Origin: Microbulbifer salipaludis
GTDB lineage: Bacteria; Pseudomonadota; Gammaproteobacteria; Pseudomonadales; Cellvibrionaceae
Reading direction: 5' to 3'
NCBI RefSeq assembly: GCF_017303155.1
Contig: NZ_JAEKJR010000001.1
Location: 1,240,001 to 1,304,000 of the forward strand
DNA: 64,000 nt
A program made the translations under genes and the position numbers. This document shows, in pieces, positions 4,010 to 14,176 of the stretch; the stretch's first letter is position 1, and the number at the start of each line of letters is the position of its first letter. Below the pieces are notes generated by a model that was not told the DNA's origin, did not search any database, and saw only the letters and a list, made by a program, of their open reading frames with translations.

Positions 4010-5050
4010 CTATTCGCCCTGAATATCCAGATCGCCCTCGGCAGATGATTTTTTCGACGACTTTCCGCGTTTGTTGTCCGACTCCTCAATGGAAATATCG
4101 AACAGCGCCGGCGTACTGGCGAGGAAATCGTCCAGTGGTTCCGGTTTGCGCCACAGGAAATCCTTGGACTTCAGCTCCTTGGATACCTCCGGCGCGCCGG
4201 TGAATTCACCCACCTTGCCGATCTCCACCGCCGCCACAAAACCGAGGAAACACCACGGCAGCAGGATCGACGCCACCAGCCGCCAGTGCGGCGCGATATT
4301 CAGCGCCAGGTAGGCGGCACACCACAGCATTACCGGGATCAGAATGGCCAGGGCGAGAATGTTCAACAGCGGCATTACCTGGTGCAGGGTAAAGTTGAAA
4401 TTGAGCAGGGTGGCAAACCATTGCCAGGCGGCGTAGATCAGCGCCGCAGCGGCGGCGATAGACAGGTGCGCCAGAAAGTGCGATTCGTGCTTCACCACCT
4501 TGCCGATAAACGCCCAGGCCGCGGCGTAAATGAGCAGGCCGATCACCGCGTCGGTAATCACCTGCACCGCGCCGGTCCACTTGAATTCGCTGGTGCTGGA
4601 GATGTAGGCCATCCACAGGCTCAGCGCCGCCACCAGCACGCACAGAGCCACGGCCACCGGCGGCGTTGCCAGCCGGTCGAATATGGTTTCCGCCGAATGC
4701 AGCGGAATGGCCGGGGGCACACTCATGTCGGTATCGATAAAACGCAGGCGGCTTTTGCCCACCTGAATCTCGTCCCCACTTTCGATCAGGTGCTCGCGGA
4801 TATTGGTGGGCTTGACCGACTTGTCGCGGAAATTGCGCAACAGGCGGATGCCGTTCAGGCTGCCCAGGTCGCGCAGCACATAGCAGCCGTCTTCATCGCG
4901 CACCACTTCCGCGTGCACCGCATCCACATGTGGGTCTTCCACCATCACCGCGTTGTCGTAACAGCGGCCGATGGTGGCGCGCTCGCCATCCAGTCGATAG
5001 CGCGCACCCACCCGGTGGACACGATTGATTTCTTCGATAATCAGTGCCAT
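4010..5050 (-). CDS. Membrane protein with N-terminal FHA domain
   Basis: This is a 346-residue protein with a forkhead-associated (phosphothreonine-binding) domain at about residues 14-110: IGRCYDN, the DAVHAEV segment and LGSLNGI followed by GDEIQVG are the expected core. Roughly five hydrophobic segments follow between residues 130 and 280, and then a charged cytoplasmic-type tail. It should sit in the inner membrane with the FHA head inside. The start codon overlaps the end of the upstream protease gene by 10 bp, so the two are probably translationally coupled. With two Ser/Thr kinases 3-8 kb away, the FHA head may read a phosphorylated partner; this is inference. No enzymatic domain is visible. 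Confidence 0.82.
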   Translation of the reverse strand: MALIIEEINRVHRVGARYRLDGERATIGRCYDNAVMVEDPHVDAVHAEVVRDEDGCYVLRDLGSLNGIRLLRNFRDKSVKPTNIREHLIESGDEIQVGKSRLRFIDTDMSVPPAIPLHSAETIFDRLATPPVAVALCVLVAALSLWMAYISSTSEFKWTGAVQVITDAVIGLLIYAAAWAFIGKVVKHESHFLAHLSIAAAAALIYAAWQWFATLLNFNFTLHQVMPLLNILALAILIPVMLWCAAYLALNIAPHWRLVASILLPWCFLGFVAAVEIGKVGEFTGAPEVSKELKSKDFLWRKPEPLDDFLASTPALFDISIEESDNKRGKSSKKSSAEGDLDIQGE

Positions 5051-6408
5051 TGGATTTCGCTCGCAAACTTCTGGGTAAAGGCCGTGGCCGACTCCTGGGT
5101 AAACCCCGACAGGGTAAAGTGGCTTACCAGCGCGCGGTTATCCTGGTCCACCGTGAGGCTCACGTAGAACACATCGTACAGATCCGGGTAATCCTTGTAG
5201 CGGCGCACACAGTACGAGGTGCGCGCAATCACCGGGTCGCGCTTGCCGGTGGCTTTGGGGGGCGTTGCCGGTTCGTTGTTCTGCTGGGCTTGCTGGTCGC
5301 CCGTTGGCTTGGCAGCGCCATGGCCATTTCGGGGGTGCTGGGTGAACTGCTGCTTGCAGTTGAAGTTGGTCACATCGTCTTCGCCGGCGCTGTTGCCGGG
5401 GAAAAACCCGCCCATGTTCTCTTCGTAGGCACTGTAAAAGCGCGATGAGCGCAGGTCGTCGTCGGCCTCCAGCCAGAAGAATTCGTATTCCACCCGGCCG
5501 GTATCAAAGTCTTCCGACAGGTACACCACATCCTGGCCGGTGCAGCCCTTGGCCACCTGTTTGATGGGGTCGTCCTCATCGTCGGTGGAATTTCCCCAGC
5601 ACTGGATGGACGGCACAATTTCCCCGACCACCAGCGCATCCCCCAGCGGACGCAGCTGCCAGTCGGCTTCGAGTATCTGGTCGATAATGCGCTGCTGGTT
5701 TTTGTGCAGCTGGCGGGTAATCACCGGTTGCAGCTCCAGCGCGCCGTTGTCGTCGGAGGCCTCTTTTTTGTAATCCAGCAGCAGTGCCACCAGCTTGTCC
5801 ACCGGCACCAGGAAACTGATCTGGTTGCCGGCGGTGGCCACATTAATGCCCACCACTTCGCCCTTGCGGTTGATTACCGGGCCACCACTCATGCCGGGAT
5901 TGATCGAGCCGGAAAAATGAATGCGGTCGTAAAAGCTGCCGCCGGCAATACCGTTATAGGTGCCGGGCACAATGGTCATGCCCAGGTCCAGCGGGTTGCC
6001 CATGGAGACAATGGTCTCGCCCTTGCTGGGTGATTGCGACGCCAGGCGCAGGAAGTCACTGCCCGAGGCACCTTTTTGCCGCAGGATGGCCAGGTCGTTG
6101 ACCACATCCACATCCAGCAGCTCCAGCTCGCCTTCCTTGCCATCCACCGACAGGTACTTGAGCGTGTACTTGTCCGGGTCGTGCACCGCCTCGGACACCA
6201 CATGGTAATTGGTGGCAATCAGGCCATCGGTGGAGATCTGGAACCCGGAACCCAGCCCCGCCTTGGAATTGGACGACAGCTCGATCAGGCGGATCTGATA
6301 CAGGCTGCCGCGGTAGTCGCTGTACAGCTGCTCGTAACTCTGGGATTGGGAAACGCTGGCAAAGGTGAGCAACAGCAGGGCGATCAGGCCCGTCAAAGGT
6401 TTCAACAT
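5041..6408 (-). CDS. Trypsin-like (S1C/DegP-type) serine protease without visible PDZ
   Basis: The frame is open to 6492, but the methionine at 6408 starts a good signal peptide (hydrophobic residues 5-17, cleavage near SQS), so I use it; the mature protein is exported. The catalytic triad of a DegP-like protease is clear: His69 in TNYHVV, Asp105 in NDLAIL and Ser174 in NPGMSGGPV. The second half of the 455-residue protein, past about residue 215, shows no PDZ repeat. It is an uncharacterised, acidic, probably extracytoplasmic domain with several cysteines. The gene is coupled to the downstream FHA membrane protein. A role in envelope stress sensing or processing is possible but not shown. 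Confidence 0.85.
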   Translation of the reverse strand: MLKPLTGLIALLLLTFASVSQSQSYEQLYSDYRGSLYQIRLIELSSNSKAGLGSGFQISTDGLIATNYHVVSEAVHDPDKYTLKYLSVDGKEGELELLDVDVVNDLAILRQKGASGSDFLRLASQSPSKGETIVSMGNPLDLGMTIVPGTYNGIAGGSFYDRIHFSGSINPGMSGGPVINRKGEVVGINVATAGNQISFLVPVDKLVALLLDYKKEASDDNGALELQPVITRQLHKNQQRIIDQILEADWQLRPLGDALVVGEIVPSIQCWGNSTDDEDDPIKQVAKGCTGQDVVYLSEDFDTGRVEYEFFWLEADDDLRSSRFYSAYEENMGGFFPGNSAGEDDVTNFNCKQQFTQHPRNGHGAAKPTGDQQAQQNNEPATPPKATGKRDPVIARTSYCVRRYKDYPDLYDVFYVSLTVDQDNRALVSHFTLSGFTQESATAFTQKFASEIQWH

Positions 6409-6570
6409 CGTATAGTCGGCACTGATTGATTTGTGGGCGAAACGGCGCTTGATGTTACGGGATAGCCAATGGCGCAACAACAGGCACAACAAGCCGCGGG
6501 CATCCCGACAATAATAGAAAGCCCGGTGGCTAAGTGTAGTGAATAGCGGCGACGGCGGTGGCGGCGGCTG

Positions 6571-6610
6571 GCGTGTAATAGCGTGTAATGGCGTGTGATC
6601 GACCTGTAAT
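6571..6610 (+). promoter_or_regulatory. Phased TGTRAT repeats upstream of the putative Csr-type RNA
   Basis: Three consecutive 10-bp units (GCGTGTAATA, GCGTGTAATG, GCGTGTGATC) occupy 6571-6600, and a fourth TGTAAT follows at 6605-6610. The half-sites lie at 6574, 6584, 6594 and 6605, about one helical turn apart, so a protein could bind them on one face. They lie just upstream of the candidate regulatory RNA. They are not the classical GacA palindrome (TGTAAG-N6-CTTACA), only similar in the TGTAA core, so a link to a GacA/UvrY-like regulator is speculation. Confidence 0.4.
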
Positions 6611-6699
6611 GGCGAAATCCGTACAGTGCGCTACAAGGTTGAGGGGGACGCGATGCCCGGCCCTCACGGGAGCCGCGGCAAGGTGGATTGCAGACACCC

Positions 6700-7038
6700 C
6701 GGTAACGGTGACCATCATGGAAGGTGGCACGAGGAAAGCGACGGAATTGCTTTCCGCACCGGCTCCGGTACAGCGCCCCTCGACCAATTTACCAAAGGAT
6801 TGGTAGTTGCCCATCGCCGCAGAGCCTAGGAGATGGGTGATAAATCAGGAAGACTTCGGCGCAAGCTGAACCGTCAGGCCGGCCCGGCAACCACAGAGCC
6901 TAGGAAGCCGGGATAGTGGAAGGGTCTGACAGAGGCAAGGATGCCTCATTTCGCTCTTGATAGTGTTGTTGTAACCGTAGATGGCTGGGACCATCTGTTT
7001 ATCACCGGCAGTAAGCTTGCTTGCTGCCGGTTTTTTTT
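6700..7038 (+). ncRNA. Candidate CsrB/RsmZ-type CsrA-sequestering small RNA
   Basis: No credible protein is encoded here. On the plus strand there is a series of hairpins that display ANGGA or related motifs, the binding signal of CsrA/RsmA. Stem 6733-6739/6749-6755 has ACGGA in the loop. Stem 6783-6788/6799-6804 has AAGGA. Stem 6810-6815/6832-6837 has TAGGA. Stem 6883-6888/6907-6912 has TAGGA. Stem 6932-6937/6942-6947 has the four-base loop AGGA. Stem 6979-6984/6991-6996 has CTGGGA. Unpaired copies occur near 6719 (ATGGA), 6733 and 6847. The third and fourth loops share the 12-mer CAGAGCCTAGGA. The unit ends in a textbook intrinsic terminator. The 5' end is uncertain and could lie anywhere from about 6620 to 6710. 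A cis-acting leader of the gene at 7202 is the main alternative. Confidence 0.72.
7004..7038 (+). terminator. Intrinsic terminator ending the putative small RNA
   Basis: Arms of 13 bases, ACCGGCAGTAAGC and GCTTGCTGCCGGT with one G-T wobble, are followed by eight T residues. It is the strongest terminator-like structure in this part of the window. It lies 164 bp upstream of the next plus-strand start codon, so it separates the RNA region from that gene. Confidence 0.88.
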
Positions 7039-7201
7039 GGCAAAAAATCTGTGCAACTTTGTGTAGAAAAATGCCAAGCGATTGCAGTAAGCTGTGTGAC
7101 GCAGTTCTCGTTCTGAGTCTGCGTTTGTATCAATGTTTCAAGACCAACGATCACCCTGGGCGGTTTGCAGGGAAAATAGTCATAATTTACAGGATAGAAA
7201 G

Positions 7202-7669
7202 ATGACCGAAGCAACCGAAGCGGTAGAAGCCTGCATTGAAGTGCCCGCGCAGGGCAAAGTGGAAATGAACTTCACCCTGGAGCCCACCGGCGCCGACCAG
7301 AAGTGGATTCTTAAGGACGACAATGGTGATGAGTGGGACACCATCTGTGTGAAGTTTGACGGGGTGAAGAGCGGTGGCGTCGGTAAGTCCGGCAAGGCCG
7401 AGCTGACCATTCAGATGGTCAATAGCGACCTGGTGTTCAAGAAGCTGGCTGGCAATGTCGACGGTATCAATATCTACGATGTGGTCAATGATGGTGACGA
7501 AGGGATCTCCAGCTGCAAGGTCGACAGCCAGAATGCGCAGCAGCTGAAGATGGTGCTGAAGGCGAACAAGCAGACTGAAAATGCCTTCTCTTTCAAATGG
7601 GTGGCTGAAGATACAAGTGGAAACGAGGTGTTGTCCGCCGATCCGCGTACTGTGCTCGAGCCACAATAA
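7202..7669 (+). CDS. DP-EP family-like small protein of unknown function
   Basis: The frame extends further upstream, but the ATG at 7202 follows AGGATAGAA and begins a compact acidic protein of 155 residues, so I take it as the start. There is no signal peptide or membrane segment. The regular alternation of polar and hydrophobic residues suggests a beta-sandwich. The C-terminus contains DPRTVLEP, which resembles the DP...EP signature of the DP-EP family of uncharacterised bacterial proteins; I recognise this only by motif. The stop codon (7667-7669) directly abuts the stop of the convergent kinase gene (7670), with no spacer. Proximity to kinases and FHA proteins makes it a candidate partner, but no function can be stated. 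Confidence 0.78.
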   Translation: MTEATEAVEACIEVPAQGKVEMNFTLEPTGADQKWILKDDNGDEWDTICVKFDGVKSGGVGKSGKAELTIQMVNSDLVFKKLAGNVDGINIYDVVNDGDEGISSCKVDSQNAQQLKMVLKANKQTENAFSFKWVAEDTSGNEVLSADPRTVLEPQ

Positions 7670-10267
7670 TCAGTCGCAGATAGCTGATTTTACCTTTAGG
7701 GAAGCTTGGGGTTGAGTGCAGAGTCGCTGAAGAACTGGTAGTTTAAACCATTCTGCACTCATCCCTTGCTGCAGTAGCTTGGATATATACAAGTTTGATG
7801 ACCTCCATTCGCCAGACATTGCGTAAATTTGTGCTGCCGCATACTGCACAAAAGTGTCTTCTGGTGACTCGATCAATAGCTGCGTAATAAGCGATAGCGC
7901 CTCATCTAGTCGATCCGAGTTAGCTAGAGCAAGTGATCGATAGTATTTGAGTTCAGCGTCATCTTTGTTTTCTGTCAATGAAATAACTTTCGAAAATTTC
8001 TTTGTTGCCCTGGTCTGGTCGTTGAGTGCCAAATGTATTTCAGCTGTTTGTTCTATAGCTTGTACAGAGTCTGGGACAATTTTTAGTACCTCCTCAAATT
8101 CGTTTAAAGCAGCACTAAAATTCCCCATTAAAAACTGAGCTGTGCCTAAATTCATCATGGTGCGCCAGCCACGAAGGTTCTCAGGAATGGAAGTAATGGC
8201 AAATTCTGCGGCATCCAGGTTGCCGCTTTCCAGTTCAATCACGCCCAATGCTGAATATGAGGACCAGTGCTCCGGAAAGGCTGTAATTGTTTCGTTAAGG
8301 GTGATGCGTCCATCATCGTAGCTTCCGCTAGCTATCTGGTTCAGGGCAATCAAGTAAAGGTTGTCAGCGGATGGATTAAGTTCTGCTGCTTCCTGGGCGT
8401 AATGTAGCCCTGCCTCATAATCCCCCTGCATATAGAGAAATCGTGCATATTTGGCCATTAGCTCTGAAGAGGGGGTTTGCTGCTCGTCTATTTTTGCGAG
8501 TAGTTCGTCGAACTGAGTTTTTTCTGTGCTGTAGCTGCGCAACCATAGCTCCAGTTCAAGCGTTAAGGACGGATCTATTCCTCTGCCCTCAGCTACTCTT
8601 AGCATATCTAGCCCAGACTGGATGTGAGTCTCCTCGCCTGTCAGTACGAACAAGTCCGTTGCGACCTGTGTATAGGCCTTATAGAGAGTCGGATTTTGAG
8701 GGTAGGAGTTTAATAGTTTCTCCAGACGATTTAGGTCATCGACCGAGTTGTCCTTACTCTCAAGGCGTGCGGCGATATTCAGGTAGTCGTTATAGTCTTT
8801 ATCCGACATTACGACCTGCTTGCCAGTTTTGTTTGAGTAATCCTGGGGAAACAAAGCTGCCATGCTATTGGCAATCCGATATCCCGCTTCCTGCCGCTTA
8901 TCCGCCAAAAACGCAAAACTACTCTGCTGCTTGATTTGACTATCCGCCGGCCCAATTCTCTGTAGTGCTATTTCACAGCGCGTTTGCGCGCACTCCAGTT
9001 GCGCAACAAGCGCATCGGTTACCCCCTTGTTCCGCAGGGCCTGCAGCTGGTCGTCGAAATCCTGCCCCTCTTCTGGGGTAAAACTCACCAGCGCACTCGC
9101 CTTCAACTGCGAAACCGAATTCATCAACGCCTGCCGCACCATAGTCCGGGTCAGCGCCTTGGCATTCTCCTCGCCACGGATTTCGCCATTAATCTCCACC
9201 GGCATCACCGCAATATACTGCGGCTCCAGCCGGGTGATTTCCTTCCAGCCCCAGTAGCTTCCCACTCCCAGCACAAAGGCAGCGGCCACGCCGGCCAGTG
9301 CCCGCTGCCAGCGGCGGCGGCTTTTGACTTTCTGCTGGGTAAACAGGTCGGTGAGGGTGGCGGTGTAGTCTTCGCTGCCGGTCTCCAGTCCCTGTTTGTG
9401 CAGCAGGGCAAAACCCTGATACACGATCTGCGCGCTCTCGGGGCGTTGGGCCGGGTCTTTGGCGAGCAGTTTATCCAGCAAAATCGCCAGCGGCTCGGGG
9501 ATATCCGCCCACGCTTGTGCCGGCGGGGTGTGCGGGTCGTTGGTGACGCGGTTGGCCATGGCCAGAGCGCCGATGTCGTTTTTGCCGAAGGGGCGGCTGC
9601 CGGTGAGCAGCTCAAACGCAATAGTGCCGAGGCTGAACAGGTCGCTGCGGGCATCCAGAGTTTTGCCGAGGATCTGCTCCGGCGACATGGCGGTGATGGT
9701 GCCGGCGAGCTGGTTTTCTGCCGTTAAGGTTTTCTCATCCAGCTGCTGGGATTTGGCGATACCGAAGTCGGTGATCTTGGCCACCGGCTCGCCCTTGGCG
9801 TTTTCCGCAATCAGAATATTGTCGGACTTTAGGTCGCGGTGAATGATGCCGAGGCTGTGGGCTTCGCTCAGGCCCAGGCAGATCTGCATCAGCAGGCTGA
9901 GTTTCTGTTGCAGGCTGGGGCTGCGCTCGCGCATCCAGGCGCGCAGGGTGGTGCCCTCGATATATTCCATCACCAGCGCAACACTGCCGTTGTCTTCCAG
10001 CACATCGTGCAGGGCGACAATATTGGGGTGGTTGAGCTGGGCTAATAAACGGGCTTCCTGCTGGATACGGTCGCGGGCGTTCTGGCTGGCGGCGTCGTCT
10101 TTCAGCTTTTTGATCGCCACCTGGCGGTGCAGTTTGAGGTCGTCGGCCAGGTAGACCACACCCATGCCGCCGGCGCCCAGGGTGCTCCGGATGCGGTAGC
10201 GGTCGCTGCCGATACGGGTGTTGGGGGCGGCCTTGTGCTGCGTAACCTCGGGGTCTGCAATGTCCAT
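7670..10267 (-). CDS. Transmembrane Ser/Thr protein kinase with C-terminal TPR-like sensor
   Basis: This 865-residue Hanks-type kinase has a glycine loop GAGGMG (31-36), catalytic lysine K53, HRDLKSDN (143-150), DFG (167-169), an activation segment with MSPEQ (194-198) and an arginine in QRP near 275. The kinase domain (about 25-290) is cytosolic. A single membrane segment lies near 322-340 after an RRRW stop-transfer. The rest (about 345-865) should be periplasmic: first a TolB/FlgO-like segment starting YIAVMPVEI, then many TPR-like helical repeats. The sensor-encoding DNA (about 7670-8900) is clearly more AT-rich than the kinase half. The gene follows a second kinase gene (100 bp gap), probably in one transcript. 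Its signal and substrates are unknown. Confidence 0.92.
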   Translation of the reverse strand: MDIADPEVTQHKAAPNTRIGSDRYRIRSTLGAGGMGVVYLADDLKLHRQVAIKKLKDDAASQNARDRIQQEARLLAQLNHPNIVALHDVLEDNGSVALVMEYIEGTTLRAWMRERSPSLQQKLSLLMQICLGLSEAHSLGIIHRDLKSDNILIAENAKGEPVAKITDFGIAKSQQLDEKTLTAENQLAGTITAMSPEQILGKTLDARSDLFSLGTIAFELLTGSRPFGKNDIGALAMANRVTNDPHTPPAQAWADIPEPLAILLDKLLAKDPAQRPESAQIVYQGFALLHKQGLETGSEDYTATLTDLFTQQKVKSRRRWQRALAGVAAAFVLGVGSYWGWKEITRLEPQYIAVMPVEINGEIRGEENAKALTRTMVRQALMNSVSQLKASALVSFTPEEGQDFDDQLQALRNKGVTDALVAQLECAQTRCEIALQRIGPADSQIKQQSSFAFLADKRQEAGYRIANSMAALFPQDYSNKTGKQVVMSDKDYNDYLNIAARLESKDNSVDDLNRLEKLLNSYPQNPTLYKAYTQVATDLFVLTGEETHIQSGLDMLRVAEGRGIDPSLTLELELWLRSYSTEKTQFDELLAKIDEQQTPSSELMAKYARFLYMQGDYEAGLHYAQEAAELNPSADNLYLIALNQIASGSYDDGRITLNETITAFPEHWSSYSALGVIELESGNLDAAEFAITSIPENLRGWRTMMNLGTAQFLMGNFSAALNEFEEVLKIVPDSVQAIEQTAEIHLALNDQTRATKKFSKVISLTENKDDAELKYYRSLALANSDRLDEALSLITQLLIESPEDTFVQYAAAQIYAMSGEWRSSNLYISKLLQQGMSAEWFKLPVLQRLCTQPQASLKVKSAICD

Positions 10268-10367
10268 CTGCGCGTTTTCTTCTTGTTAGAGCCTGATTGT
10301 GCGCCCGGCCGATACCCCTGGCCTGGGCGTTGACGAGCCGCGGGGCATCGGTGCGGGCCGGGTGCCG

Positions 10368-13031
10368 TTACAGATTCGCGCTGGTCTCGTCGCCGCGGGC
10401 GATCTGGGAATCACCCGCTGTGTTGTTGTGCTCCCCGCTGCGGCACAACCCGGGATATTGCTGCCGGAGGTCGTTGAACGCGGGAATGTTGCAGATTTTG
10501 ACAAACCGTGCGGTGCAATACCAGATGGGCGAGATGCCCTGCTGCAGGGTTTTGCGAATGTGCGCCTTGGCGGAGAGCAGGTCGCCGGTGGTGATGTACA
10601 CCTGGGCGCGGGCGTAATTGGTGTAGAGGTCGTCCGGGGCATCGCGGCGAATCTTGAGCAGGTTTTCTACCGCCTGCTCGCCGTTGCCGAGCTCGGCGTA
10701 GGCGCGGGCCTGCATCAGCAGGCCTTCCCAGTCGTTGCGTTGCTGGGTGAGCGCCAGCGCCTGCCGGGCCAGTGCCTGGGCGCGCTCGGGCTGCTGTTGT
10801 TCGCGGGCGATTTCGGCGCGGTACAGCAGCGGGGAGGCGTCTTTGGGGGCCAGCTCGGAGACCCGCTGGAAGCAGGTTTGCGACTGCGCGTACTGCTTCT
10901 CGATGTAGTAGGCGAGGCACAGGTTGTAGGTGTCCATAGGCCCGATGCGGTCGAGACCAACCTCCATCAGCAGGCGGATGGTTTCGGTGGGCTGGCCTCC
11001 GTCGAGCATGTTGGCGGCCAGCAGCGAGATGGCCTCGATGGATTCCGGGTTGAGGGCAATGGCCTGCCGGAGTACCTCGTTGGCGGCGGGCATGTCGCCG
11101 TCGAGGGTGAGGTTCAGGGCCTTCTGGCCCAGGTAGGCGTAGCTGGTACGCAGGGCGAGAGCCTGGTCGATGCTGTGCAGGGCGCGGCGGTAGTCGCCCT
11201 GTGCCTGGTGATAGACGGCGCTGAACTGGTGGTAGGTGGCTTTGTCCGGCAGGGTCAGCTTGAGCTTTTCCAGTAGGCTTTCTGCCCGGCCGATGTCGCC
11301 GAGCATGATCGCGAGGCTCAATTCGCTGATCAGGATTTCCGGGGCTTCGTTCAGCCGCTCGGGGGCTCGTTGCAGCAGCGCTGCTAGGCGTTCATCGGCC
11401 TCTGCAGCGCGGGTGTTGAAGTCGTGGTCTATGACCATTTCTGCGTACAGTTCGTACAGCGGAGCGAACCCCGGCGCCCGCTGCTGCAGTGCGTCGAGCC
11501 GGTCCAGCAGCGACCCCAGGTGCAGGTAATCGTCGCGGCGCTGGTAGATTTCCAGGTAGGTGAGGTAATCCTCGTCGTCGATCTGCGCGGAGCTGCTGAG
11601 GGCCTGTGCCGGGTAGTCCGTCAGCAGGGCATCCAGCTGGTGCAGGGTGCGCGCGCGGCTTTCCAGCCCTTCGTCCATTACCAGGCGGGTGCTCTGGCTG
11701 CCGATGACCGACAGGGTGGTGCTGTCGAGTAGTTCCAGTGACAGTTCGCAGCTGCGCCCCTGGCAGTCCATATCCGGGAGCAGCAGCAAATCCGCGTTGA
11801 GGGATTTGGCCTGGTTGGCGAGGGGTTGCCCGGCCAGTTTGCGCGACTCGGAATAGGAAATGAGGTGCAGCCCGCGACGGGCAGACAGCCCCTGTTTGAG
11901 CGCATTTTGCACATTGCCCGCCAGCAGGCGCTGGTCATGGGACATGGCCTGCCCGCGTACATCCGGTTCCAGAACCGCAATGTAGCGGCCTTTCTGGGAC
12001 TCGGCGGGCGCTGAATATAGGGAGACGCCGGCGATCGCCGCAATACCGACAGCGCAGACCGCGAGTGCGCCCAGGGCCCTGCGGGCCAGGGGGCGGCGGT
12101 GGGACCGGCGGAAGTAGTCCTCGGCGGTTACTGTGGCGGTGAGGCTGTGGGTGCGACTCTGGGTGCGACTGTGGGAGCGACTAAATCGGGTGTCGCTACC
12201 GCGCAGCTGTTGCAACAGGGATTCCAGCTCGGCAGCCACTTCGGTGGCGTTCAGTGGGCGCTGTTGCGGCTGCTTCGCCAGCAGGCGGTCGAGCAGATCG
12301 CTGGCGGCCTGGGGCAGTTCCGGGGCCAGCTTGCTGGCCGGTGGGTGCGGGCTTTTAACAATGCGATCAACCGTCACATAGGGGCTGCTGTTGTCGCCGA
12401 AGGGGCTCTGCCCGCACAGCAGGCGATAGGCCACAACGCCGAGGGCAAACAGGTCGCTGCGGTTGTCCAGGGGTTTGCCCTGGGCTTGCTCCGGCGACAT
12501 GGCGCCCCAGCTGCCGGCCACATGCTGCTCGCGGGTGAGGCCACTGTCTTCGTGCCAGTTTTTGGCAATGCCAAAATCGGTGATTTTGATGGTGCCGTCG
12601 CTGTCCACCAGGATATTTTCTGCTTTCAGGTCCCGGTGGATGATGCCGGCGCTGTGGGCGCGGGCGAGGCCGGCACATACCTGCTTGAGCAGTTGCAGTT
12701 TTTGCGACAGGTCCAGGTCGCGTTCCCGCTGCCAGCGGTCGAGGCTGCAGCCGTCCACATACTCCATCACCAGGGCGATACCGCTCGGGTCTTCCACCAC
12801 ATCGTAGAGTTGCACGATATTGCTGTGATTGAGCTGGGCGAGCAGCAGTGCTTCGCGGCGGATACGCTCGCTGGCGTTGCTACTGTTGGGATTGCGCAGC
12901 AGCTTCTTGATGGCCACCTTGCGGTTCAGGCGCTCGTCGGTGGCCAGGTAAACCACACCCATGCCGCCGGAGCCGAGCCGGGCGGTGGCGTGGTAGTGGC
13001 CGATGTAGAAAGGAAGCTGCTCTGGTTGCAT
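10368..13031 (-). CDS. Transmembrane Ser/Thr protein kinase with TPR-like sensor
   Basis: This 887-residue protein shares the plan of its neighbour: kinase domain about 10-275 with GSGGMG (20-25), K42, HRDLKAEN (132-139), DFG (152-154) and MSPEQ (178-182), membrane segment about 316-338, then an extracytoplasmic part opening with YIAVLEPD and continuing as TPR-like helices to about residue 850. The juxtamembrane linker (283-298) is a short S/T/R repeat, SHSRTQSRTHS, encoded by a 12-bp tandem repeat. All catalytic residues needed for activity are present. The two kinases look like a duplicated pair. It lies between the FHA/winged-helix gene upstream and the second kinase downstream, all on the same strand, so joint expression is likely. 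Confidence 0.92.
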   Translation of the reverse strand: MQPEQLPFYIGHYHATARLGSGGMGVVYLATDERLNRKVAIKKLLRNPNSSNASERIRREALLLAQLNHSNIVQLYDVVEDPSGIALVMEYVDGCSLDRWQRERDLDLSQKLQLLKQVCAGLARAHSAGIIHRDLKAENILVDSDGTIKITDFGIAKNWHEDSGLTREQHVAGSWGAMSPEQAQGKPLDNRSDLFALGVVAYRLLCGQSPFGDNSSPYVTVDRIVKSPHPPASKLAPELPQAASDLLDRLLAKQPQQRPLNATEVAAELESLLQQLRGSDTRFSRSHSRTQSRTHSLTATVTAEDYFRRSHRRPLARRALGALAVCAVGIAAIAGVSLYSAPAESQKGRYIAVLEPDVRGQAMSHDQRLLAGNVQNALKQGLSARRGLHLISYSESRKLAGQPLANQAKSLNADLLLLPDMDCQGRSCELSLELLDSTTLSVIGSQSTRLVMDEGLESRARTLHQLDALLTDYPAQALSSSAQIDDEDYLTYLEIYQRRDDYLHLGSLLDRLDALQQRAPGFAPLYELYAEMVIDHDFNTRAAEADERLAALLQRAPERLNEAPEILISELSLAIMLGDIGRAESLLEKLKLTLPDKATYHQFSAVYHQAQGDYRRALHSIDQALALRTSYAYLGQKALNLTLDGDMPAANEVLRQAIALNPESIEAISLLAANMLDGGQPTETIRLLMEVGLDRIGPMDTYNLCLAYYIEKQYAQSQTCFQRVSELAPKDASPLLYRAEIAREQQQPERAQALARQALALTQQRNDWEGLLMQARAYAELGNGEQAVENLLKIRRDAPDDLYTNYARAQVYITTGDLLSAKAHIRKTLQQGISPIWYCTARFVKICNIPAFNDLRQQYPGLCRSGEHNNTAGDSQIARGDETSANL
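12147..12182. repeat. 12-bp tandem repeat inside the kinase juxtamembrane linker
   Basis: Three copies of a 12-bp unit (GTGGGTGCGACT, CTGGGTGCGACT, GTGGGAGCGACT) lie head to tail in the kinase gene. On the coding strand they encode a four-residue repeat rich in Ser, Thr, His and Arg just before the membrane segment. Such repeats can change number by slippage, which would alter linker length and the number of phosphorylatable residues. Confidence 0.75.
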
Positions 13032-13130
13032 GTTACTGACTGCGGTAATAAATCTACGGGTAAACCGCCGTCCGTGGATTAGGAGGCCTGCTGGTGCGGG
13101 CCCGGTCGTGTATCGCGAAGTCCGTGCGCG

Positions 13131-13158
13131 AGTGTGTTCGGCTCTAGTGTGTTCGGCT
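13131..13158. repeat. 13-bp direct repeat between the FHA regulator and kinase genes
   Basis: AGTGTGTTCGGCT occurs at 13131-13143 and again at 13146-13158, a 15-bp period, in the 146-bp gap between the FHA/winged-helix gene and the first kinase gene. It could be a binding site for the FHA/winged-helix protein or simply slippage; the sequence alone cannot decide. Confidence 0.55.
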
Positions 13159-13177
13159 ATGGCCTGAACATTTGGGC

Positions 13178-14176
13178 TCAGGCGGGCTCGGGTGCTAAGG
13201 CGTACTCACCGGTGCTGGCTTCGAGCTCTTCTTTCTGTGATCCCTTGAAAATATCCAGCATGTAGCCACCCAGGCGCATTTCATACGCGCGCCGCTCTAC
13301 CAGCCGCGAGGTATCGATGGCATCGGGCAGGCTGTCGGCAATCTGTTTGCGCGCGCGGAATATCTGGGTGTTCAGGTGGTTGACCGTGATACCCAGCTCG
13401 CGGGTGGCGAGATCAATGGCCACCCAGCCCTGATCGGGCGCGTCTACATTGCGCTGAATGTCGCGGATGCGCGCACGCGCCAAGTACAGCAGCAGGTAGT
13501 TATGGGTGCGCGCTGCCAGGTCGAGGCGCATGTCGTCTTTGGCCAGCTGTAGTTGCACATGCTCTTCGTGATGGCTCACGGTAAAGCGCAGGCGGAAGTC
13601 GGAGACACACAGGTTCTTGAACGAGAGCTCGGTGGTGGTGCTCTGGCTAGCGGCGAGGAACAGTGTCCAGCTGCTGTGGGCACAGTCGATGCGGCTGTTG
13701 TGATGGACGACCCTGGCGCTTTCGCCGTGCTCTGGCCCCTCAATCAGTTCGTAGACCCACACCCCGTTCACCGGGTTGAAATGCAGGCTGGCAATGGGGT
13801 CGTGCTCGTCGGGCAGCAGGTGGTAGGACTCCAACGGCATACCTTCACCGGTGTGGATGTCGATCAGCAGGTTTTCCGGCGGGTCGAGGTTTTCCACCTT
13901 CCAGGCCGGGTTGGTGGCGCGACCGAAGGTAAGCACGTCGCCGATATTGAGCGGCTGGTTCTTGGCGGGGATGAGCTGCTGCCCGTTGACCCAGGTACCG
14001 TTGCGGCTGAGGTCGCGAATGATCCAGTGGCTGCCGGTCCACTGGACGGCTGCGTGAATGCCGGAGATTTCAGGCAGAGTGATGCGCGTATCGGCAACCC
14101 CCTGGCGGCGGCCAATGGTGTGGTGGGCCATCAGGTAGACGGGTTGATCCTGATCCGGATGTTGCAAGCTGGCCAT
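13178..14176 (-). CDS. FHA domain fused to a winged-helix DNA-binding domain
   Basis: This 332-residue cytosolic protein has an FHA domain at about 18-86: IGRR, SGIH (38-41), RNGT (58-61) and IGDVLTFG are the conserved phosphothreonine-binding positions. A middle region of unknown fold follows. At about 217-304 there is an OmpR-like winged helix, with the recognisable end LGITVNHLNTQIFRARKQI followed by the wing-like VERRAYEMRLG. It therefore looks like a transcription factor that can be gated by a phosphorylated peptide, similar in concept to mycobacterial EmbR but with reversed domain order. It precedes two Ser/Thr kinase genes on the same strand, after a GGGAAGGGA ribosome-binding site. 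Regulation by these kinases is inference. Confidence 0.85.
   Translation of the reverse strand: MASLQHPDQDQPVYLMAHHTIGRRQGVADTRITLPEISGIHAAVQWTGSHWIIRDLSRNGTWVNGQQLIPAKNQPLNIGDVLTFGRATNPAWKVENLDPPENLLIDIHTGEGMPLESYHLLPDEHDPIASLHFNPVNGVWVYELIEGPEHGESARVVHHNSRIDCAHSSWTLFLAASQSTTTELSFKNLCVSDFRLRFTVSHHEEHVQLQLAKDDMRLDLAARTHNYLLLYLARARIRDIQRNVDAPDQGWVAIDLATRELGITVNHLNTQIFRARKQIADSLPDAIDTSRLVERRAYEMRLGGYMLDIFKGSQKEELEASTGEYALAPEPA

Follow-up and report, generated by a model that had tools for sequence, protein, structure and literature searches.

The window analysed here is a 64,000-nucleotide stretch of the Microbulbifer salipaludis genome. Its plus strand carries a predicted RNA gene of about 405 nt at approximately 6634-7038, followed, outside the RNA, by a gene for a DP-EP-like protein (7202..7669, plus strand) that is co-located with it in most genomes. 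The DP-EP-like protein of the window gave no Pfam or NCBIfam match at E 0.001; its homologue P0012 carries PF08985, which we take to be the DP-EP family. The cluster around the RNA (4010-14176) also encodes FHA proteins (4010-5050 and 13178-14176), a trypsin-like protease (5041-6408) and two Ser/Thr kinases with TPR repeats (7670-10267 and 10368-13031). By eye, GGA motifs including ACAGGATAG are seen at 7150-7204, just 5' of the start codon of the DP-EP-like gene, which might itself be a CsrA target.

Alignment of 47 copies of the RNA gene revealed two conserved blocks, at about 6572-6646 and at 6855-7038. The first reads as a promoter on the plus strand, with the -35 element TCGACC (6599-6604), a 17-bp spacer and the -10 element TACAGT (6622-6627), and would place the start near 6634. 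From this block and the terminator, the transcript is therefore predicted to run from about 6634 to 7038. The first-pass annotation had set the unit at 6700..7038; its 3' end is retained, while the 5' end moves to near 6634. The pattern of the promoter block was matched in 59 of 60 copies from 49 genomes, with TANNNT at the fixed 17-bp offset in 58 of these 59, and the one copy that the pattern missed (L167) differs in its array by one base. A generic promoter consensus scanner did not call the site (8/12 matches). The array consists of three TGTAAT/TGTGAT repeats with a 10-bp period upstream (TGTAAT at 6574-6579 and 6584-6589, TGTGAT at 6594-6599) and a fourth, TGTAAT at 6605-6610, within the spacer, giving an overall period of 10-11 bp. 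The exact three-repeat pattern occurs once in its own genome. When 390 genomes of the order were searched for a slightly different, wider form of the array, six had it, each once and each a Microbulbifer genome; four of the ten same-genus genomes in this draw deviated from it.

At the other end, the unit closes, as had been proposed, with an intrinsic terminator (7004-7038, plus strand) made of a 12-bp stem (7004-7031) and a T run. The terminator scan itself was uninformative (one found versus 0.9 in shuffles), and the stem covaries in relatives. The earlier view that no protein explains the region was borne out, as translated similarity in relatives came from all six frames with none prominent. 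A short reading frame starting near 6940 was rejected because one-base indels occur on both sides of the invariant 3' stretch in which it lies and the third codon positions there are constant. When the segment 6700-7045 was folded, a z-score of -3.6 was obtained, and one of 100 shuffles folded equally well. Taken from the sequence, the locus is predicted to encode a free-standing non-coding RNA with its own promoter and intrinsic terminator.

The distribution of the RNA was examined by blastn with 6600-7060, in which each of the 36 other Microbulbifer genomes queried gave a match, the weakest at E 1.2e-9, and 21 genomes of other families gave none below E 0.0168. In the family search, a covariance model of the RNA core, R1, detected the RNA in 48 Microbulbifer genomes, the own one included, and in one genome of another genus (G331, 86 bits), which was kept. 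None of the 20 listed genomes without an R1 match is Microbulbifer (73 further genomes without a match stand outside that list). Among 293 genomes of the order, seven of the same genus matched R1 strongly and six others weakly; the large genome sets were scored with stricter filters, so that weak relatives could be missed. The six weak matches (L076-L081), from other families of the order, were judged not to hold up, being, apart from L081, matches to coding sequence or terminators. L081, viewed by alignment, is a 30-nt match to the 3' module with an E of 0.004 per genome in 293 genomes and was taken as probably due to chance. Similarly, G357 and G395 (about 24 bits) and G392:C1:1409501 were taken as terminator matches, and a weak model match in G006:C34 (L084) was rejected as coding sequence or a terminator. 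With an exact pattern derived from the RNA, 31 of 32 stretches in named genomes were from Microbulbifer; in the remaining one, from Atopobium (L111), R1 reported nothing, and it was taken as chance.

Several genomes carry more than one copy, promoter included: five each in G033 and G023, and two each in G010, G389 and G006. The extra copies are whole promoter-to-terminator units located away from the usual neighbours. The five copies in each of G033 and G023 (L038-L041) lie within about 19 and 26 kb, most of them without a DP-EP-like gene, and are interspersed with transposase-like genes and a C39-peptidase ABC transporter-like gene (names assigned by eye). Duplicated csrB genes are known in Vibrio, according to an excerpt of PMC6262261.

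The structure of the RNA core was assessed on an alignment of 45 of the 47 copies (44 distinct sequences), with L016 and L049 left out. It comprises five helices with 33 pairs, all on the plus strand: a small hairpin with a GCAA tetraloop (helix 1, 6856..6869), a two-tier stem (helix 2, 6873..6930, with outer arms 6873-6880/6923-6930), the hairpin H3, GAGGC[AAGGAT]GCCTC (helix 3, 6932..6947), the hairpin H4, GATGG[CTGGGA]CCATC (helix 4, 6980..6995), and the terminator stem (helix 5). According to the alignment, the two-tier stem encloses an inner hairpin with a conserved CAGAG motif (6883-6912). Altogether 97.8% of cells were paired and 15 pairs had changed on both sides, seven of eight in helix 2; none of 500 shuffles reached either value, a control that is inflated by the kinship among the sequences. 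Sliding the helix partners lowered the pairing to 18-42%, although the structure, having been derived largely with RNAalifold from the same alignment, is favoured over its slid versions. H4 is near-invariant and lacks covariation evidence because four of its five pairs never vary. A pseudoknot between the CAGAG motif and GCTCTTG was considered by eye and showed no covariation.

Upstream of these helices, four further plus-strand hairpins are predicted in the window. H1, CCATC[ATGGAA]GGTGG (6712..6727), and H2, TTACCA[AAGGAT]TGGTAG (6789..6806), present ANGGAN hexaloops; the hairpin GGAAAGCGA[CGGAA]TTGCTTTCC (6733..6755) has GGA in its loop, and the hairpin CCCATC..GATGGG (6810..6837) contains CAGAGCCTAGGA (6820-6831) in its loop. 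As the first-pass annotation had noticed, two hairpins share CAGAGCCTAGGA, with copies at 6820 and 6894; the CAGAG part of this sequence is widespread in the genus, and the trailing GGA is retained mainly in the subclade of the window.

A high-affinity site for Csr/Rsm proteins (CsrA/RsmE) is an ANGGAX hexaloop placed directly on a stem, as given in the available part of PMC4005645. The RNA of the window has several GGA motifs in hairpin loops, among them strict ANGGAN hexaloops at 6717, 6795 and 6937 on stems of 5-6 bp. The three strict hexaloops (stem of at least 4 bp) in 6640-7038 compare with a mean of 0.04 in shuffles, none of 1000 reaching three, and this number was attained in only two of 1274 sliding windows of the 64 kb, both overlapping the RNA. 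Earlier inspection had described about ten GGA motifs in 340 bases and a 6-bp hairpin closing on AGGA; indeed, 11 GGA start between 6700 and 7038 (14 were counted in 6640-7038), and the hairpin is present at 6932-6947. The same inspection had proposed six or more hairpins with ANGGA-type loops. In the strict sense, CsrA-type hexaloops number three; a looser measure, which accepts GGA in any 4-9 nt loop closed by 4 bp or more, gives eight. The looser count is moderately unusual, with 3.6 in shuffles and a value of eight reached by 21 of 1000 shuffles and 5 of 1274 sliding windows.

The strict sites recur in the relatives. When stems of 4 bp or longer were required, 39 of the 47 copies had at least one, 34 at least two and 22 three. 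With stems as short as 3 bp admitted, ANGGAN was present at H3 in 54 of 60 copies, at the upstream H2 in 46 and at H1 in 33, the counts for H1 and H2 being generous, as these were picked as the best candidates in a stretch. The stems vary while the ANGGAN loop is kept: CCATC/GGTGG, CCGTC/GACGG and CCGTT/AACGG for H1, ACCA/TGGT, GCCA/TGGC and TCCG/CGGA for H2, and GAGGC/GCCTC, GGGGC/GCTCC and GGAGC/GCTCC for H3. Even in the other genus, G331, H3 reads GGTGC[AAGGAA]GCACC. The first reading had been made to depend on whether relatives preserve the stems and the GGA loops; they do, as covarying helices and as ANGGAN loops on changing stems in most copies. These comparisons indicate strong selection on the ANGGAN hexaloops in most copies.

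Not all copies conform. In eight of the 47, no strict hexaloop is closed by 4 bp or more (L037, L043, both L044, L046, L047, L048 and L050). For five of these, both L044, L047, L048 and L050, the GGA-in-loop counts are also at background, while L037, L043 and L046 have counts well above background. Conversely, strict sites are present in L024 and L049, where the looser count is at background. The exact H3 hexaloop is absent in both G006 copies.

The most conserved part of the RNA is not a CsrA/GGA site. This 3' module (6949-6995) begins with the near-invariant and probably single-stranded segment TTTCGCTCTTGATAGTGTTGTTGTAACCGT (6949..6978, plus strand); across 45 copies, TTTYGCTCTTGATAGTGTTGTTGTAACCGT and the H4 hairpin that follows it are nearly invariant. 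From GCTCTTG onwards, 26 nt show no difference among 54 of the 60 copies, the exceptions being L034, L040_7012, L044_2272, L049 (G007), L156_1953 and G331, the last of which, from another genus, retains the module in part. A separate observation is that the module, near-invariant elsewhere, is interrupted in L049 (about 1589-1807) by roughly 30-35 inserted nt. Among the copies without strict hexaloops, the module is exact in L050, L048 and L044_2938 and changed in L044_2272. That these divergent copies retain the module suggests a second function, which it probably adds by base-pairing or by binding another partner. We know of nothing like this module in the known Csr/Rsm RNAs (CsrB, RsmZ).

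The genome encodes a single CsrA/RsmA protein of 64 aa. It also has one close GacA/UvrY-like protein, which scored 271.7 bits against a curated cut-off of 280. The region itself matched no Rfam family at the gathering score; Hrs13, MIR2629 and istR gave low-scoring matches only and were rejected. The Rfam comparison that had been suggested for CsrB, RsmY and RsmZ did not identify the region, as it matched none of these covariance models at the cut-off. Genome-wide, where the search comprised these three families (all families were scanned on the window), CsrB (RF00018) had no match at E 10, and RsmZ and RsmY had only sub-threshold matches (8 and 29), none above the Rfam cut-off. Of the sub-threshold RsmZ/RsmY matches, L052, L117 and L118 end in terminators and have no strict hexaloop; L117 and L118 are located at gene ends and L052 has three GGA. 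Another, unrecognised Rsm RNA may be present elsewhere in the genome.

The GacA/UvrY box (TGTAAGN6CTTACA, with the consensus taken from the portion of PMC4682653 at hand) was matched no better than in shuffles upstream of 60 copies. As a positive control, six RsmZ loci all carried it at 11-12 of 12 positions. Such a box is not strictly defining for Csr/Rsm RNAs, because csrB1 of V. tasmaniensis is independent of VarS/VarA (PMC6262261, in excerpt). If the RNA is a Csr antagonist, its input should therefore differ from the usual one, and GacA may control the gene indirectly.

Comparison with known systems places the RNA near the Csr/Rsm kind and apart from its described members. RsmZ of Pseudomonas (PrrB_RsmZ, RF00166) is likewise free-standing; it ends in an intrinsic terminator and has several GGA hairpins, among them one with an A(N)GGAX hexaloop, as described in the accessible text of PMC4005645. 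The control genes, which are six of the eight RF00166 matches in six genomes of another family of the order, presumably Pseudomonas, have 6-9 GGA each and 0-1 strict hexaloops on stems of at least 3 bp, versus three in the Microbulbifer RNA. The latter is about three times longer, has no Rfam match, carries the extra invariant 3' module and lacks the GacA box that all six controls possess. CsrB of Escherichia coli (RF00018) is similar in length (369 nt) and rich in GGA, with 22, but by the same count none of these lies in an ANGGAN hexaloop closed by 3 bp or more. The hexaloop count hence suits Rsm-type RNAs and is blind to CsrB-type sites. Pf2 and Pf3 of Pseudoalteromonas fuliginea are, in the part of PMC11882849 available, lineage-specific marine Csr RNAs that were found through GGA motifs, promoters and terminators and then tested; they belong to a different lineage, and the likeness is one of description. 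The same text states that the sequences of Csr/Rsm RNAs are usually not conserved and that computational detection of these RNAs is difficult. No report of a Csr/Rsm RNA in Microbulbifer was found among the literature matches listed, which does not settle the matter.

On the evidence of covariation, hexaloops and the CsrA in the genome, the best reading, already put forward as a CsrB/RsmZ-type regulatory RNA, is a stand-alone CsrA-sequestering RNA of the Csr/Rsm kind, to which we assign a probability of roughly 75%; CsrA binding would follow from the predicted sites. It is distinct from the known Csr/Rsm RNAs in having no Rfam match, another promoter logic and the invariant 3' module. The module also fits an alternative, namely a trans-acting base-pairing sRNA whose main function resides there and which CsrA modulates or stabilises through the GGA hairpins. 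sRNA seeds typically combine a conserved single strand with a terminator after it; the module resembles such seeds in both respects, is better conserved than the rest, and persists in copies without strict hexaloops and partly in another genus. Against this, a duplex search covering the window and 25 loci of the own genome (79 kb) gave no convincing target: the best non-self duplex had -31.4 kcal/mol (L065; mean -15.6, sd 3.4), and a near-perfect complementary stretch in L006 (-29.2) falls within a long reading frame, well away from the start of that frame. Since the strong selection on the ANGGAN hexaloops in most copies also speaks against it, we consider this alternative unlikely. Far less probable still is some other structured RNA that uses the GGA hexaloops for tertiary contacts or for a protein other than CsrA. 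The conserved GCAA tetraloop, the CAGAG motif and the H4 loop are not CsrA features and would suit it, but an exact ANGGAN hexaloop on variable stems fits the recognition rule of CsrA/RsmE.

The neighbouring gene offers a further explanation, a cis-acting leader or attenuator of the DP-EP-like gene. In 36 of 37 genomes this gene stands downstream of at least one RNA copy, and it does so for 38 of the 47 copies in all; in G331 a 152-aa reading frame, DP-EP-like by eye, stands in the same place, followed by a kinase-like one. The linkage is not constant, however: no DP-EP-like gene was detected downstream of four of the five copies in each of G033 and G023 (1400 nt read; 349 nt for one copy) or of the G001 copy. 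Moreover, the terminator stands between RNA and gene, and the interval past it, conserved between close relatives for up to about 136 nt, leaves room for a separate promoter. The RNA and the DP-EP-like gene are genuinely but not invariably associated; this favours a stand-alone RNA over a cis-leader, which we regard as improbable. On the upstream side, a protease like that of the window adjoins 14 of the 47 copies, the window's own included (the upstream stretch read was often only 1500 nt), and the upstream gene in G331 encodes a protein with a Cys/Met-metabolism PLP domain.

A side observation concerns the DP-EP-like gene itself. The RNA stretch of the window is 98% identical to that of G031 by blastn, and in the comparison of window 7174-7669 with L009 (G031) the similarity stops about 136 nt past the terminator; for the DP-EP-like gene of G031, the best match is to another subtype (52%). 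The similarity of L013 to L014 and to L165 likewise breaks off early. Judging by these alignments, the DP-EP-like gene seems to have been exchanged behind a constant RNA.

If the RNA is indeed a stand-alone CsrA-sequestering RNA, the dedicated promoter would yield a transcript of about 405 nt that stops at the terminator (7038). The hairpins with ANGGAN hexaloops, three of them strict, along with further GGA in loops, would bind CsrA dimers and keep CsrA off mRNAs, so that CsrA-controlled genes would change upon production of the RNA, and the invariant module (6949-6995) would probably act in a second function. A more specific proposal, which we offer tentatively and hold to be possible rather than probable, is a two-headed RNA with a 5' CsrA-titrating domain of variable length and an almost invariant 3' module for a second partner, in which the TGTAAT-array promoter replaces the Gac box. 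In that case the genus would rely on this RNA as its only or principal antagonist of CsrA, and CsrA control would respond to a signal other than that in Pseudomonas or E. coli.

The RNA provides a well-conserved candidate CsrA-sequestering RNA for a whole marine genus. In the examined genome CsrA is present, yet no CsrB, RsmY or RsmZ lies above the Rfam cut-off. The unusual array at the promoter, together with the invariant tail, suggests that the RNA answers to different inputs and may have a second output.
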